Assembly: GCA_002686995.1 (NCBI GenBank)
Contig: NYZC01000356.1
Span: forward strand, 1-62,194
From: Phycisphaeraceae bacterium
Lineage (GTDB): Bacteria; Planctomycetota; Phycisphaerae; Phycisphaerales; Phycisphaeraceae
Direction: 5' to 3'
DNA: 62,194 nt
The notes beneath the pieces are model-generated. The model was not told the origin of the DNA. It did not search any database and was given only the letters and a program-made list of their open reading frames with translations. Shown here in pieces: positions 13,795 through 25,245 of this stretch. Position numbers and translations under genes: made by a program. Within the stretch, counting starts at the first letter, position 1; the number at the start of each line of letters is the position of its first letter.

Positions 13795-15186
13795 TCAGCG
13801 GTCCGTGGATTGCTCGTCCAGCCCCGGGAACGGCGCGTCGCCGAGCTTGAACAGGTCGCCCGTGCCGCCCGGCAGGCGCAGCTTCAGTACGCCGCCTTCG
13901 ACGACCAGCGCCTCCGGCCTGCCGGTCTCGCGTGAAAGGCGCGTCAGCGACGTCACCTTCGGATCGAACCTGAGCGTGAACGTTTGTGCGCAGTCGGCGC
14001 CGGTCATGCCCTCGTCGTGCCAGATGTTGGTGACCATGAGGTACTCGTGGCCGTCGTCATCCCTGAAGAATCCGAGCATGGCATCGCGATCAGGGCCGAC
14101 GGCGTCAATCGTGACATCGGTCAGCAGGGCCGACCTGCCTTCCACGTCCGGCCAGGTCCATTTGCCCTTCGGCATGCGCGGCGCCGGGTTCGGGACACCT
14201 TTGCCGTCGCGCTCTTGCCGGCCCAGGACGAATGCGACGCCGGTATTGTCGAGGAACCGCAGCGCCTGGCCGAGGTTGGCCACCTCCATGTTGGCGCGCC
14301 CGGAGTGGTAGTACAGCGGCGTGCGGCGCGCGGCGCCGTCGACGAGCCCCGGTCCCAGCGCCGGGTCGTACGTGAAGTACGCGAAACCCGTGTAGCCCAT
14401 CGCCATGGGCGCGAACATCTGAAAGCGAATGTCACTGTCACTGGGCCGTCGCCGCCGGCCGTCGTGGTCGAACGACTGGATGAACACCCAGTACGGCGCG
14501 TTCAGCTTCATGCCCTCGCGCCGCACGAGCGCCATGTTCTCGAAGTAGATGCCTGACTTGCCGCCGCCTTTGCCCAGCGGGTAGATGTCGATCATCACGA
14601 CATCGGGCTCGACGATCTGTCCGAAGCGCTCAATGTAGGTGTCGTAGAAATCGGGCGGGTGATTGTCGTTGTCGAATCCGTACTTGGCCGGCCAGCGCGC
14701 GCCTCGGGGCAGCGCGTTGGAGTAGATCAGCTTGTCGGGAAACGCCTTGCGCAGCGCGATGAGCGTATCGCGCACCCTGGGCATCACGTAGATGCGCGGC
14801 TCATCCCAGAACATCACGCCGGTGATACCGGGGTATTGCTCCATCAGCGCCCGCGTGTGCTCGACGTATTGCTCCGGCGTTTCGCCGTGATTCTGGTGAA
14901 GGTGGTAGTGAATCGGAAGCCCGTCGTCCGACGATTGCCTGAGCATGTTGGGCTTGGGGTCCCACGCCAGCAGGTGCGTCATGCCGGCGCCCTTGTAGTC
15001 GTTGACGTCGAAGATGTCGTCGTTCTGCGTCAGGGCGCCGATCCAGAACGGATTGGCACGCAGCCACTTCTTCCCACGGCTCAGGGTCATCTGCTTCTTC
15101 GCATCCTCGTCGGCGAGACACCGTCCGGATTCGATCGTCATCGTCAAGGCGAAGGCAAGGGCAAGGGCAAGGACGGGGCGAATCAT
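13795..15186 (-). CDS. Secreted TIM-barrel glycoside-hydrolase-like protein
   Basis: MIRPVLALALAFALTMTIESGRCLA signal; GVMFWDEPRIYVM, PDVVMIDIYPLG, YTGFAYFTYDP; ATG at 15184-15186 chosen. Confidence 0.75.
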   Translation of the reverse strand: MIRPVLALALAFALTMTIESGRCLADEDAKKQMTLSRGKKWLRANPFWIGALTQNDDIFDVNDYKGAGMTHLLAWDPKPNMLRQSSDDGLPIHYHLHQNHGETPEQYVEHTRALMEQYPGITGVMFWDEPRIYVMPRVRDTLIALRKAFPDKLIYSNALPRGARWPAKYGFDNDNHPPDFYDTYIERFGQIVEPDVVMIDIYPLGKGGGKSGIYFENMALVRREGMKLNAPYWVFIQSFDHDGRRRRPSDSDIRFQMFAPMAMGYTGFAYFTYDPALGPGLVDGAARRTPLYYHSGRANMEVANLGQALRFLDNTGVAFVLGRQERDGKGVPNPAPRMPKGKWTWPDVEGRSALLTDVTIDAVGPDRDAMLGFFRDDDGHEYLMVTNIWHDEGMTGADCAQTFTLRFDPKVTSLTRLSRETGRPEALVVEGGVLKLRLPGGTGDLFKLGDAPFPGLDEQSTDR

Positions 15187-15597
15187 GAATGTGCTCCAGA
15201 GGGAACTGCAGGGAAGGTACTTGTCGGACAGTCCGGTTCGCCGGCACAGATCGACGCACTCCTTCCACGTCGTGACATGATACTGATCGAACTCTTCGAC
15301 GTCGGTCAAGCGGGTTACACGGCCGCGCTGCTGGCTTCACGAAGCTGGTTTCGATCTGCGACTCGGACAGCGGCGCGATCCGCTCGAGCGGCGCCAAGCC
15401 GCGATCGACATCGCAGCCTGCGGTGTTGGAGGAGCGATACCATGGGGTATCGATTTGGTTCGCGTCGATAAAAGTAAGCTGTTCTCCTCGCGATCCTGTG
15501 ATCGAGGACCACCCGTACCATAGAGGGTAGAATAGGACGGTGGTTTCAAGGCGACACAGTCGCCGGCCGCTGAAACTCGATGACGTTATGTGACTCT

Positions 15598-20222: not shown

Positions 20223-22235
20223 TCACTTGAAGCTCGGGATGATGATGCCGCGGAGAATGATGTTCTGACAGAACACGAACACGATCAGCGTGGGCACGGC
20301 CGCGATCACCAGCGACGCCATGACCAGGGGGACCGTGTTCTGCTGCTGGAACTCGTAGAGAAAGACCATCAGCGTCCACATCGCGGGATCCTGGCAGACC
20401 AGGAACGCATGCATGAACGCCCCGTAGGCGGCAGTGAAGGCGCCCAGCGCCATGACGGCCAGGATCGGCTTGCACAACGGCAGCGTGATGCGCCGCAGAA
20501 TCGTCAGCTCACCGGCGCCGTCGATGACGGCAGCCTCGTACAGCTCTGCCGGAAGACCGTCGAAGAACCCCTTGAGCAGGAAGATGCCGTACCCGTTGGC
20601 CAGGCTCGGAAGCACCAGGGCCCAGAACGAGTTCAACAGGCTGACCGAAAGCGACAGATCGAAACGGGCGGCCAGGCGTGGCAGCACGTAGCCGCTGAGC
20701 ACGGCGGTCACCAGCAGCGCGACCGAGGCACTTGCCAGCAGCGGCATCTTCTTGCCCATGAGCGTCTTCAGCCAGACGAATGCCGCGACGCACAGACCCA
20801 CCAGCACCATTTGGCCCAGTGGAAAGGACTTGATCAGAAGGAAGCTGGGGATCATCAGCACCTCCGCCGGGAACGCCATCGTCGCGAGCAGGAAGACCAG
20901 CAGGTGATGGGTGTGCCGCAGGCCGAAGCGCGATAGAGCATAGGCCGCCAGCGGGTTGACGGTGAGTGTCGTGCCGATCATCACGACGATGTAGATGACG
21001 GTGACCCAGAGCGCTCGGCCGTGTACGGCGATGAAGTCGATCACGGTCAGGAAGTTGTGGGTCAGGTACGTCCACCGGAGTCTCCCCGCCATGTTCCGGT
21101 ACGCGTCGTAGTGGGCCAGGGCCATCGTGGGACCGATGGTTGCGTCCTCGAACCGACTGTATGGCGTGCCGTGCGCTCGATTGAGCGCGTCGACGGTTCC
21201 GTACCGCTCGGTGAGAAATGTCCGCCACGAGGTTTGCGGGCGCACCAGGTCCAGCGCATCGATCGGCGCAGATCGCTGAACGAACCTGGCCCACGCCGCC
21301 ACGCGGGCCGGATCGCGGGGCAGGCGCTCATCGAGCGGGAGGTCCGGATCTTCGTTTATGCTTCGGAGAAATCGACGCCAGGACGGCGCCGCGGCTGCGG
21401 CGTCCACCCGCACGAAACGCAGCGGCGCATGACGACGGAAGAATGCGCGCAGGGTGCGCTCGCCCAGGCTGAACCGGGCGAGGTCGTCATATGAGACGGC
21501 GCTCAGGGTTTCGGCTGTCCACCCGGTCTGCTCGGTAAGGCGCGCTGCGCTGCCGTACCGGGCGACGAGAAAATCGTATACGGTCGCATCGATGTTGAAG
21601 ATGCCTGTTCGAACCGGTTCGCGGGACGTGATGAAACGCCGCCAGTCGCGGCCGCGGATGTCGTCGTCGGGCCAGCGGTGAAGCGGTTGCGTAGGTAATT
21701 CCAGCTCGTTCCACGTGGTCGCGTTGTCGTCGTAGGCGCGGTTCACCTCATCGATTTCACCGTACCGGCCGGCCAGCCACCGCAGATACGCAGGGCGCAG
21801 GGCCAGCGGATTCTCGCGGCCGCCGCGGACGAACAGCGGCATCTTGAATTCGTCCGGGCAGGTTTTAGCGATGAAGCGGCGCCAGTCCGCCGCGACGGTC
21901 GCGCGAACGGACGCTGACGTCGACGTGACGGCGAGAAGCTGGGACTCCTTGATGTCCGAAGGCAGGAACCACTGATCGTGCCCGAACCACGCGGCAAGAT
22001 CGCTGACGGGGGCGGCGTCCACGAGATATTTCCTGAACAGCGCCGTGTCGTTGAACCAGTACCGCGGGATGAGCCTTAGCTGATCGCCGTCCGCGCCGCT
22101 CGTCGTGGCCGTCGAAAGCATGAGCGCGAACGGATAGATCATGGTGAACGCGCCCAGCGTCAGCACCAGGTAAATCCCACCCAGCAGCAGGCGCAGCGGC
22201 ATCGAGCGTCGGCCGACCCGGCTGATCAGGGACAT
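20223..22235 (-). CDS. Carbohydrate ABC transporter permease (AraQ/MalG-like) with large extracytoplasmic insert
   Basis: EAA loop EAAVIDGAGELTILRRITLPLCKPILAVMAL; TM1 LRLLLGGIYLVLTLGAFTMIYPFALML separated from TM2 by ~330 aa of soluble sequence; ATG at 22235. Confidence 0.9.
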   Translation of the reverse strand: MSLISRVGRRSMPLRLLLGGIYLVLTLGAFTMIYPFALMLSTATTSGADGDQLRLIPRYWFNDTALFRKYLVDAAPVSDLAAWFGHDQWFLPSDIKESQLLAVTSTSASVRATVAADWRRFIAKTCPDEFKMPLFVRGGRENPLALRPAYLRWLAGRYGEIDEVNRAYDDNATTWNELELPTQPLHRWPDDDIRGRDWRRFITSREPVRTGIFNIDATVYDFLVARYGSAARLTEQTGWTAETLSAVSYDDLARFSLGERTLRAFFRRHAPLRFVRVDAAAAAPSWRRFLRSINEDPDLPLDERLPRDPARVAAWARFVQRSAPIDALDLVRPQTSWRTFLTERYGTVDALNRAHGTPYSRFEDATIGPTMALAHYDAYRNMAGRLRWTYLTHNFLTVIDFIAVHGRALWVTVIYIVVMIGTTLTVNPLAAYALSRFGLRHTHHLLVFLLATMAFPAEVLMIPSFLLIKSFPLGQMVLVGLCVAAFVWLKTLMGKKMPLLASASVALLVTAVLSGYVLPRLAARFDLSLSVSLLNSFWALVLPSLANGYGIFLLKGFFDGLPAELYEAAVIDGAGELTILRRITLPLCKPILAVMALGAFTAAYGAFMHAFLVCQDPAMWTLMVFLYEFQQQNTVPLVMASLVIAAVPTLIVFVFCQNIILRGIIIPSFK

Positions 22236-22257: not shown

Positions 22258-25245
22258 TCATGCTCGGGAATCCCATGCTGCCGCCGCACGAAACTGCAGC
22301 CGGTTGAGGATGCGCAGCTGATGCAGGGTGAAGCCGATCAGCAGCGCCGCCATGATCCAGCCCATGGCGGTGGCGGCGCCGAAATCCAGGTACAGAAACG
22401 CGCGAAACCAGATGTCCAGGCCGATGACCATCGAACGATCCTCCGGGCCTCCGCCCGTCATCACGAAGATGTTGCCGGACTCCTTGAAGCCGGCGATGAC
22501 CGCGCCCACGAAGTTGATGATGATCAGGGCGTGCAGGTTGGGGACCGTCACGAACCAGAACTTCTTCCACACGCCGGCCCCGTCCAGGTCGGCGGCTTCG
22601 TACTGCTGATCGGGAATGCTCTTGAGCGCCGCCAGATAGATCAGGCAGCCCGGTCCCGCCCCGGCCCAGATCACGGGCAGCACCAGCCACAGCATGACCA
22701 GGCTGCGGTCGCGCAGGAAGGTCTGCCTTTCGAAAGCGAATCGGCTCCAGAACGCGTCGATCACGGCCGCGGCGCCGCCGTTGGCGCCGCGATCGATGAG
22801 GAACCAGAGCACCAGCGCCAACCCGGTCGCGCCCGCCGCGCCGCTGATCCAGCGTTCGCGACCGGTGCCCGTGGACTTGACCGCCTGGAAGATCAGCGCC
22901 GCGAAGATGGCGACCAGGCCCAGCAGCATGAGCAGCTTCACCGCAACGGCCACGGGAAGCGGCCAGGCGTTGAACGAGAGAATCAGCCGATTGAGCACGC
23001 CCTTGTCGGTCGGGTCGTAGAAGAGCTGCTTCCACAGAAAGAGCGTGACGAGGCCGGTCGTCACGGCGGGCAGGTAGTAGATCACGCGGTACACGATCTT
23101 CCCGCGCGGGATCTCGCTGAGCAGCACGGCGAGCACGATGGGGACGATGAATCCGATCCCGACGAGCATCAGGACGTATTCGAACGTCTGCACGAGGTGT
23201 AACCAGAACGGCCTCGAGGCGACCACCTCGATGAAGTTGCGCAGGCCGACGAATCGGGAGTCGCCCAGGAGCCGGTAATCCTGGAATGCCATGATCATGC
23301 CGCGGGCCAGCGGGTAGTAGTTCCATATCAGAACCGTGACCACCGCCGGCAGCAGCATCGCCCACGCGTACGCGGCGCGACGCGGCCGGCGCCCCGCGGC
23401 GCCGATCCGCTCGCCACCGCGGGCGGTCGATCTCATGGCCAACTGAACGACGCGCACGGCGGCCATCATCAGCCCGGCCGCCAGGCCGGCGAAGATCAGC
23501 CAGCCGATGCGCGAGCGCCGGCGCACCTGCTCGTCGGACATCCGCCCGAGGATCCGCGCGTTGACCCGGTCCACGACCTCGTTCATGACCTGCTGCAGGT
23601 CGAGTCGATAACGGCCGGTGCGCGGATCGGGGCGATCGTTGATGATCCTTTCGATCAGAAGGGGCAACTCGCGCGTCTGGACGGTCGTAAAGCCCTCGCA
23701 GAACGGTTCGACGCGCGCCCACCTGTCAAGGTCTTCCCACAGCCGTTGCCGCATCGGCGGGATGCGGTCGAGCAGATCGCCGTAACCGGCGGCTTTCAGG
23801 GGGCCGGGTCTCACGTAAGGCGCCAGACCATGGGCGACGAACGTTTCGACGCGGATCCTCTGTGCTTCGGGACCCGTGACGAATTGAATGTAGGTCCAGG
23901 CCGCGCGGCGGATCCGCTCGACGCTGCGGCGACCCGGCTCGCGGCCGGGCGTGATCGCGCGGTTGATCGACAGGTACTCGCCGGCGATGAAGGCGGCCGG
24001 ATTCGCGCCCGATCTCGAGGGAAACGGTACCGCCATCCGCAGCTTCGGCTCGGAGATGTCGGCCTCGCCGAAGACGTTGATCTGCATGCCGTACCGGGCG
24101 CGATGGATCTTGCGGCCTTCGTCCTGCCGGGTGACGGCGTCCACGACACCGCGGTAGACGCGCCGGGCGACTTCGGGGTCGCCGAGGTCGAATTCGTCAC
24201 CGTTGACGGGATCCACGGCCACGCCCGTGGCGAGCATCTCCGGCGTGATGTCAAACTCGTGGTCGCCGTTGCGCAACCAGGGCTGGTGGATCATGCGCCG
24301 GTAGAACCGCATCGCCTCGATGGCTTCGGGGCTGTCGGTGCGAAGCCGCCACACCAGGTCGTCCACCGAGCGATCGGGCGGTATCGACCGGGCGTCCAGC
24401 ACGGCTTGCCGCTTCTCCCGTCGCTCGTCGTAGGCCGACTGGTTGCCGAGCCGGACGTGGAAAGCGGCGTAGTCCACGGGCAGCGCCGGGATAGGAACAT
24501 CGCGTCCGTCGGGCCCCACGTAACAGGCCTCCACGACTTCGCCGCCGGCCGACCAGACATGCTGCATGAAGTGCGAGCCGGCCCGGGTGAGGCCGGTCAG
24601 CATCTTGAACCCGTATTGCTGTGGCTCGCCGGGCTCGCCGTCGGGCTCCCTGGCCGGATCGCGCGTGAGCCTGCGCGCGAACTCGTACAGCTCGTCCCAG
24701 TTCCTGGGCACACGATCCCCCAGCCCGGCCCGCGCGAACAGATCGCGCCGGCACGCCAGGGCGTGCGAGTAGTACAGGTAGGGCACGGCGATGATGCGGC
24801 CGCGGTCGTGGCACAGCTGCCACACCTTGTCCGGCGCGTTGATGCCGGCGTAGTCCCGCCCGTGATCGGCCGCGTAGCCTGCCAGAAACTGATTGAGGGG
24901 AAGGAGAAGGTCCTGGGCGCGGTAGTCGCCGACCTTGCGTCCCTGGAGGTAGAGCACATCGGGTGCCACGCCGCCGGCCACCGCCATCAGCTCGTTGCCC
25001 TCGGCGGCGGGCCCTTCGATCTCGAGCGGCACGAGGGCCTTGACGCGGATCTCGGGATGACGCCGGCAGAAGAGATCGAAGACCTTCCGGCGCGCCATGA
25101 TGGCGGGATGGGACGTGCCCCGGGGAGGGATGTTCCAGAGGTGCAGCGTGACCGGTTCAGCGTCGGCGCCGCAGTTCGTCGCGCAGATCCAGGTTACGGC
25201 CAGGAAGACCGTCGCCAGCGACATTCGACCGGGAATGAGGGTCAA
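22258..25245 (-). CDS. Fused extracellular solute-binding protein - MalF-like ABC permease
   Basis: 995-aa continuous ORF: signal segment, SBP (VTLHLWNIPPRGTSHPAIMARRKVFDLFCRRHPEIRV..., LFARAGLGDRVPRNWDELYEFARRLT), TM IGWLIFAGLAAGLMMAAV, then permease with EAADLDGAGVWKKFWFVTVPNL. Confidence 0.92.
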   Translation of the reverse strand: MTLIPGRMSLATVFLAVTWICATNCGADAEPVTLHLWNIPPRGTSHPAIMARRKVFDLFCRRHPEIRVKALVPLEIEGPAAEGNELMAVAGGVAPDVLYLQGRKVGDYRAQDLLLPLNQFLAGYAADHGRDYAGINAPDKVWQLCHDRGRIIAVPYLYYSHALACRRDLFARAGLGDRVPRNWDELYEFARRLTRDPAREPDGEPGEPQQYGFKMLTGLTRAGSHFMQHVWSAGGEVVEACYVGPDGRDVPIPALPVDYAAFHVRLGNQSAYDERREKRQAVLDARSIPPDRSVDDLVWRLRTDSPEAIEAMRFYRRMIHQPWLRNGDHEFDITPEMLATGVAVDPVNGDEFDLGDPEVARRVYRGVVDAVTRQDEGRKIHRARYGMQINVFGEADISEPKLRMAVPFPSRSGANPAAFIAGEYLSINRAITPGREPGRRSVERIRRAAWTYIQFVTGPEAQRIRVETFVAHGLAPYVRPGPLKAAGYGDLLDRIPPMRQRLWEDLDRWARVEPFCEGFTTVQTRELPLLIERIINDRPDPRTGRYRLDLQQVMNEVVDRVNARILGRMSDEQVRRRSRIGWLIFAGLAAGLMMAAVRVVQLAMRSTARGGERIGAAGRRPRRAAYAWAMLLPAVVTVLIWNYYPLARGMIMAFQDYRLLGDSRFVGLRNFIEVVASRPFWLHLVQTFEYVLMLVGIGFIVPIVLAVLLSEIPRGKIVYRVIYYLPAVTTGLVTLFLWKQLFYDPTDKGVLNRLILSFNAWPLPVAVAVKLLMLLGLVAIFAALIFQAVKSTGTGRERWISGAAGATGLALVLWFLIDRGANGGAAAVIDAFWSRFAFERQTFLRDRSLVMLWLVLPVIWAGAGPGCLIYLAALKSIPDQQYEAADLDGAGVWKKFWFVTVPNLHALIIINFVGAVIAGFKESGNIFVMTGGGPEDRSMVIGLDIWFRAFLYLDFGAATAMGWIMAALLIGFTLHQLRILNRLQFRAAAAWDSRA

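Follow-up and report, generated by a model that had tools for sequence, protein, structure and literature searches.

A 670 amino acid protein (P0001), encoded on the minus strand at nucleotides 20223–22235 of the 62,194-nt stretch of DNA analysed here (the window), is a MalG/AraQ-like permease with a long insert between TM1 and TM2. Its sequence suggests the MalG-side permease of a predicted type I sugar importer, the P1 loop of which has grown into a helical array. The array consists of tandem copies of a hairpin that, as judged by profile comparison, derives from GH42 enzymes, and the probability that it is an extracytoplasmic docking cradle for a tethered SBP is put at about one in two.

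All features of the permease and of its partner lie on the minus strand. The ATG of the permease gene (nucleotide 22235) is 22 nt past the stop codon of a gene specifying an SBP-MalF fusion. Hydropathy analysis placed TM1 at residues 16–34 (22134–22190) and the onset of TM2 near residue 396. The giant insert of some 330 residues described in the initial annotation is thus real, the TM1-TM2 interval amounting to about 350–360 residues. The insert itself, with its GH42-hairpin repeats, covers residues from about 45 to 390 (21066–22103), and the positively charged N-terminus together with the order of the TMs would place it outside the membrane. The MalG-type membrane domain, including the EAA loop (20229–21050), was recognized by MalG/UgpE models, by PDB entries for MalG, AlgM2 and SugB, and by the Pfam family BPD_transp_1 (residues 439–662; E-value=9.8e-7, above cut-off), which also matched 27/27 relatives (E-value ≤ 0.01). 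This domain contains an additional hydrophobic hairpin, about 64 residues long (20637–20828); of 47 scorable relatives, 13 have 58–66 amino acids at this point and 34 have four. A Pfam match to T4SS_TraI fell below its cut-off and was discarded. An annotation artefact was rejected, the protein being encoded by a single intact frame and having many relatives.

An iterative HMM defined a 43-residue repeat core recurring with a median period of about 73 residues. The consensus unit comprises helix A (lyR.fLr.kYG), helix B (dIeaLNrAyGT), a loop (yaSFddv.LP) and helix C (DW..Flr), after which an extended piece (...L.yI.L) closes the unit; the most conserved positions are L, Y, N, F and DW. Typical relatives carry 4–5 copies; at E < 0.01 most yield 2–5, with a maximum of seven. 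In the window permease two copies are clear and three have decayed. Unit 1 (21816–22058) is decayed, its first helix giving a weak HMM match, and is followed by the strong unit 2 (21600–21797), comprising residues 147–184 and a DWRRF helix and detected by both HMM and Pfam. Units 3 (21390–21587) and 4 (21246–21389), the latter having lost its second helix, are decayed and were located by alignment and weak HMM matches. Unit 5 (21081–21245), again strong by HMM, comprises residues 331–369 and a helix that runs into TM2.

With the window's clade left out of training, the repeat HMM scored 36.0 and 22.1 bits on the two copies of the window permease, while none of 540 shuffled inserts exceeded 7.7 bits. 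Profiles of single copies also matched one another in hhalign, with best probabilities of 92–97% among copies 3–5 and weaker values for copies 1 and 2; these profiles came from seven five-copy members and the copy positions were set by the repeat HMM, so that the tests are not fully blind. The internal repeats proposed in the initial annotation therefore stand, but the four motifs it treated as one mix two helices: the DWRRF motifs (residues 116 and 197) lie in helix C of units 1 and 2, whereas SWRRFL and SWRTFL lie in helix A of units 4 and 5. The insert diverges faster than the membrane domain and is nonetheless conserved. Its dN/dS was 0.07–0.11 in the three closest pairs and 0.28 in a fourth, several others being saturated, and among the few pairs in which dS could be estimated the insert is under purifying selection. 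Disordered filler was rejected as a reading of the insert.

The resemblance to GH42 enzymes, already suspected in the initial annotation, proved to be specific. Pfam matched residues 149–203 to Glyco_hydro_42 (PF02449; E-value=5.5e-6, 26.4 bits against a curated cut-off of 21) and did likewise in 20 of 27 relatives; in the window permease the match spans profile positions 153–211, that is 59 of 376. When the five copies were compared, profile against profile, with the GH42-like enzymes of these genomes, probabilities of 83, 96, 88, 98 and 98% were obtained. Against the PDB, the best match of the insert profile was the Thermus GH42 β-galactosidase 1kwg (E-value=5.4e-6), and nearly all of its 26 matches were to GH42 or related barrels. 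By profile-profile comparison, the repeat corresponds to the hairpin that follows strand 4 of the GH42 β-galactosidase barrel; in GH42-like enzymes the motif is single-copy and lies downstream of the acid/base region. These comparisons show that the repeats derive from the GH42 hairpin. An AlphaFold model of two repeats, based on an eight-row alignment (mean pLDDT 60; first A-B hairpin 83–91), displayed helices A, B and C, and its best-ranked structural matches listed were to GH42, β-1,2-glucosyltransferase, GH167, GH50 and GH14, each weak (E ≥ 0.07). The full-length model, from a two-row alignment, had a mean pLDDT of 34 and was used for fold claims at residues 150–180 only, within unit 2, where pLDDT is about 74–82. 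Support for the helical-array fold comes from a partial model.

What the repeat retains looks like a packing scaffold. Neither profile-profile comparison nor the alignment to 1kwg covered a catalytic Glu, the acid/base and nucleophile regions or the TIM barrel in the insert, and Pfam gave no match to the trimerisation domain (PF08532) in the window permease. Also missing from the repeat in the alignment to 1kwg are the five residues WSQRY, which by our numbering contain W182, the residue that probably corresponds to W200 of BiBga42A. In the latter enzyme W200 touches the sugar held by the neighbouring subunit, and the GH42 protrusion carries W200 and F221 to that subunit's substrate site in the trimer (PMC10688820).

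About 18 places in the window's genome (G000; L072–L091) specify long GH42-like proteins, mostly of 1200–1650 amino acids, in which the hairpin occurs once where tested. In the window itself, a 504 amino acid protein (13795–15309, minus strand) with a signal-like N-terminus has the look of a barrel enzyme and gave no Pfam match at E 0.001.

The partner gene (22258–25245) specifies a 995 amino acid protein in which an SBP (about residues 1–560, 23566–25245; SBP_bac_1, E-value=7.3e-14) is fused to a MalF-type membrane part (about residues 610–995, 22261–23418; UgpA/MalF models). The pairing noted for this locus holds for the family: an SBP or SBP-MalF gene lies upstream on the same strand in 69 of 72 long-insert permeases, and the three lacking a visible partner all lie less than 0.8 kb from the end of a contig. 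Sixty-five of these 69 partners are single ORFs of more than 750 amino acids; of the remaining four, two run off a contig end and two (L047, L122) are short or split. Fusions also adjoin permeases without GH42-type repeats (7 of 10 tested, including L043, L066 and L068), so that a fusion can do without the insert. The P2 region of the MalF partner seemingly has extra hydrophobic segments (residues 767–817). At L186 (1225–5733) the SBP-MalF frame has 1502 amino acids, with about 650 extra residues N-terminal to the SBP and possibly an over-extended start.

The 62,194-nt window yielded no ABC ATPase ORF, in line with the initial annotation, which had called for a shared ATPase of the MsmX type. 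MsmX of B. subtilis is described as a shared, multitask ATPase (PMC7658222, PMC5730181). With OB_MalK as the one ATPase family searched, a single OB_MalK-type gene turned up per genome in the three tested, namely G000 (88% complete, so that further copies could be missing), G428 and G030 (a single contig), and in 2/2 genomes checked it stands alone, away from the permeases. From these gene counts it is likely that one ATPase serves many such importers.

Seventy-two distinct long-insert permeases were found. The window's genome has at least 10 relatives of this type, with identities from 58% to about 37%; more occur in the same bacterial family, and one was found in a Verrucomicrobia MAG, the genome of which holds about eight long-insert permeases. 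A profile of the insert alone (E ≤ 1e-8) matched in 22 of 392 genomes of Planctomycetota, the phylum of the window, and in up to 103 of 289 in a sample of Verrucomicrobiota, the latter being an upper figure as some matches are frames of more than 900 amino acids with one motif, probably GH42 enzymes. No relative appeared in searches of viral contigs or plasmids. In a tree built from membrane-domain sequence, leaving out the insert, 71/71 insert-bearing permeases fell on one side of a branch with 100/99 support, and presence of the insert required a single change, compared with 27.6 after shuffling. Sequences from both phyla intermingle and the paralogs of the window's genome are dispersed across the clade, which suggests that the design is old and has spread by duplication or by movement between lineages. 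Of the permeases that were scanned singly, the one with the strongest GH42 match (E-value=1.3e-15) has it in the long ectodomain of a 1150 amino acid relative (L137, 5601–9053). A second MalG-like family (L043, 6201–7967; L066, 6915–8774; L068, 6810–8585) carries an unrelated insert of some 350 residues in the same TM1-TM2 loop; this insert is without a Pfam match, and the gene likewise follows an SBP-MalF fusion.

The insert and the SBP are encoded in different genes, yet their distances track each other. Insert distances correlated with SBP distances at r 0.85 and with those of the permease's own membrane domain at 0.73. Partial correlations between insert and SBP, computed with nonlinear and rate-matched membrane-domain covariates, were 0.50–0.59 (0 of 300 permutations), and the same-chain controls gave 0.21 (insert and own membrane domain) and 0.26 (SBP and own membrane domain). 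This analysis is exploratory, having been designed after the family had been seen, and its Mantel permutations are liberal in that phylogeny is not preserved. The sequence distances point to a coupling of insert and SBP, by contact or via a common ligand; they could also reflect both parts touching the same sugar, or residual phylogeny. Co-divergence favours a role in docking or hand-over, contact with the SBP and contact with the sugar not being separated by it.

Docking of the SBP is the reading that we favour, as the insert sits at MalG-P1, for which contact with MBP has been reported (Daus 2007, as cited in PMC3150292). In the proposed mechanism, the P1 loop would have become an array of about five tandem GH42 hairpins, each made up of helix A, helix B, a short loop and helix C; the array would hold the SBP, tethered to the partner MalF chain, above the translocation pore and thereby match one SBP to one importer, and energy would come from one ATPase common to many such importers. 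The decay of three of the five units in the window permease speaks against docking, as does the occurrence of SBP-MalF fusions beside permeases that lack the insert.

A platform for glycan capture, in which the repeats would bind poly- or oligosaccharides outside the membrane and pass them to the tethered SBP, is possible, with perhaps half the likelihood of docking. The repeats do originate in a carbohydrate enzyme, Y, F or W is kept at several columns of the unit, the GH42 protrusion itself reaches a neighbouring substrate site through W200 and F221 (PMC10688820), and the co-divergence of insert and SBP would be expected. However, the loop bearing the sugar-contacting Trp is missing from the repeat, and the conserved L, Y, N, F and DW look like helix-packing residues and are present in the enzymes as well. 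Because the Trp loop and the catalytic residues are absent, binding of a protein is favoured over binding of a sugar.

Should the partner be a protein, it might be an enzyme rather than the SBP: the hairpins would then bind the matching hairpins of GH42-like enzymes and hold these hydrolases beside the importer. The GH42 protrusion reaches the neighbouring subunit of its trimer (PMC10688820), roughly 18 GH42-like proteins are specified by the window's genome, and GH42-like genes lie near the permease in L032 and L049. Among the 27 closest loci no others have such a neighbour, however, and co-divergence with the SBP is not predicted, so that we regard enzyme docking as unlikely. Equally improbable is an enzyme-importer junction, at which secreted or lipoprotein GH42-like enzymes would be bound and the cut sugars handed straight to the tethered SBP. 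The insert might instead be a spacer or stator without a specific partner, a rigid mass keeping the fusion upright or shielding the loop. The variable copy number, the decayed copies and the unrelated insert in the corresponding loop of L043, L066 and L068 would suit this explanation, but the specific co-divergence with the SBP and the purifying selection in the three closest pairs make it doubtful. An active glycosidase fused to the permease, for which the Pfam match above cut-off might be taken, was rejected as extremely improbable: the match is confined to the hairpin, and with the barrel, the catalytic residues and the sugar-contacting Trp loop all absent the permease is not an enzyme, so that database annotations of such permeases as GH42 would mislead.

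No description of an SBP-MalF fusion combined with a GH42-repeat MalG was found in the literature searched. It is unusual in evolution for part of a hydrolase to be multiplied into the ectodomain of a transporter. The design, common in Verrucomicrobiota and scattered in Planctomycetota, gives the well-studied type I sugar importers a differing outside architecture. With it one can test directly how a tethered SBP is positioned and prevented from dissociating. Verrucomicrobiota and Planctomycetota are important degraders of polysaccharides, and their importers therefore bear on carbon cycling.

Among known systems, enzymes of GH42 (PF02449), GH14, GH50 and GH167 possess the same post-strand-4 hairpin, with helix A (YrxFLxxrYG), helix B (IdaLNxaxGT) and a DWxxF helix. 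In the permease, unlike the GH42 enzymes, it is in tandem in a membrane protein, without barrel, catalytic residues, trimerisation domain or Trp loop. GlnPQ and OpuA also have an SBP tethered to a membrane subunit, but they belong to other families and substrate classes, while in the window importer the SBP lies N-terminal to MalF and MalG, the partner, has an ectodomain of its own. As with MsmX, many importers without their own ATPase coexist with one stand-alone MalK-type ATPase, although sharing is here deduced from gene counts. In E. coli, MalF-P2 and MalG-P1 position the maltose-binding protein on the importer. With MalFGK2 the window importer has in common the BPD_transp_1 domain, the two-permease plan and a periplasmic loop that presumably holds the SBP; it differs in that the SBP is fused to MalF, the window is without an ATPase gene, and the large domain is on MalG-P1 instead of MalF-P2 and is built of GH42-type helical repeats. 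Like MalF-P2, the insert would be a putative platform for the SBP, situated on MalG and of different origin.
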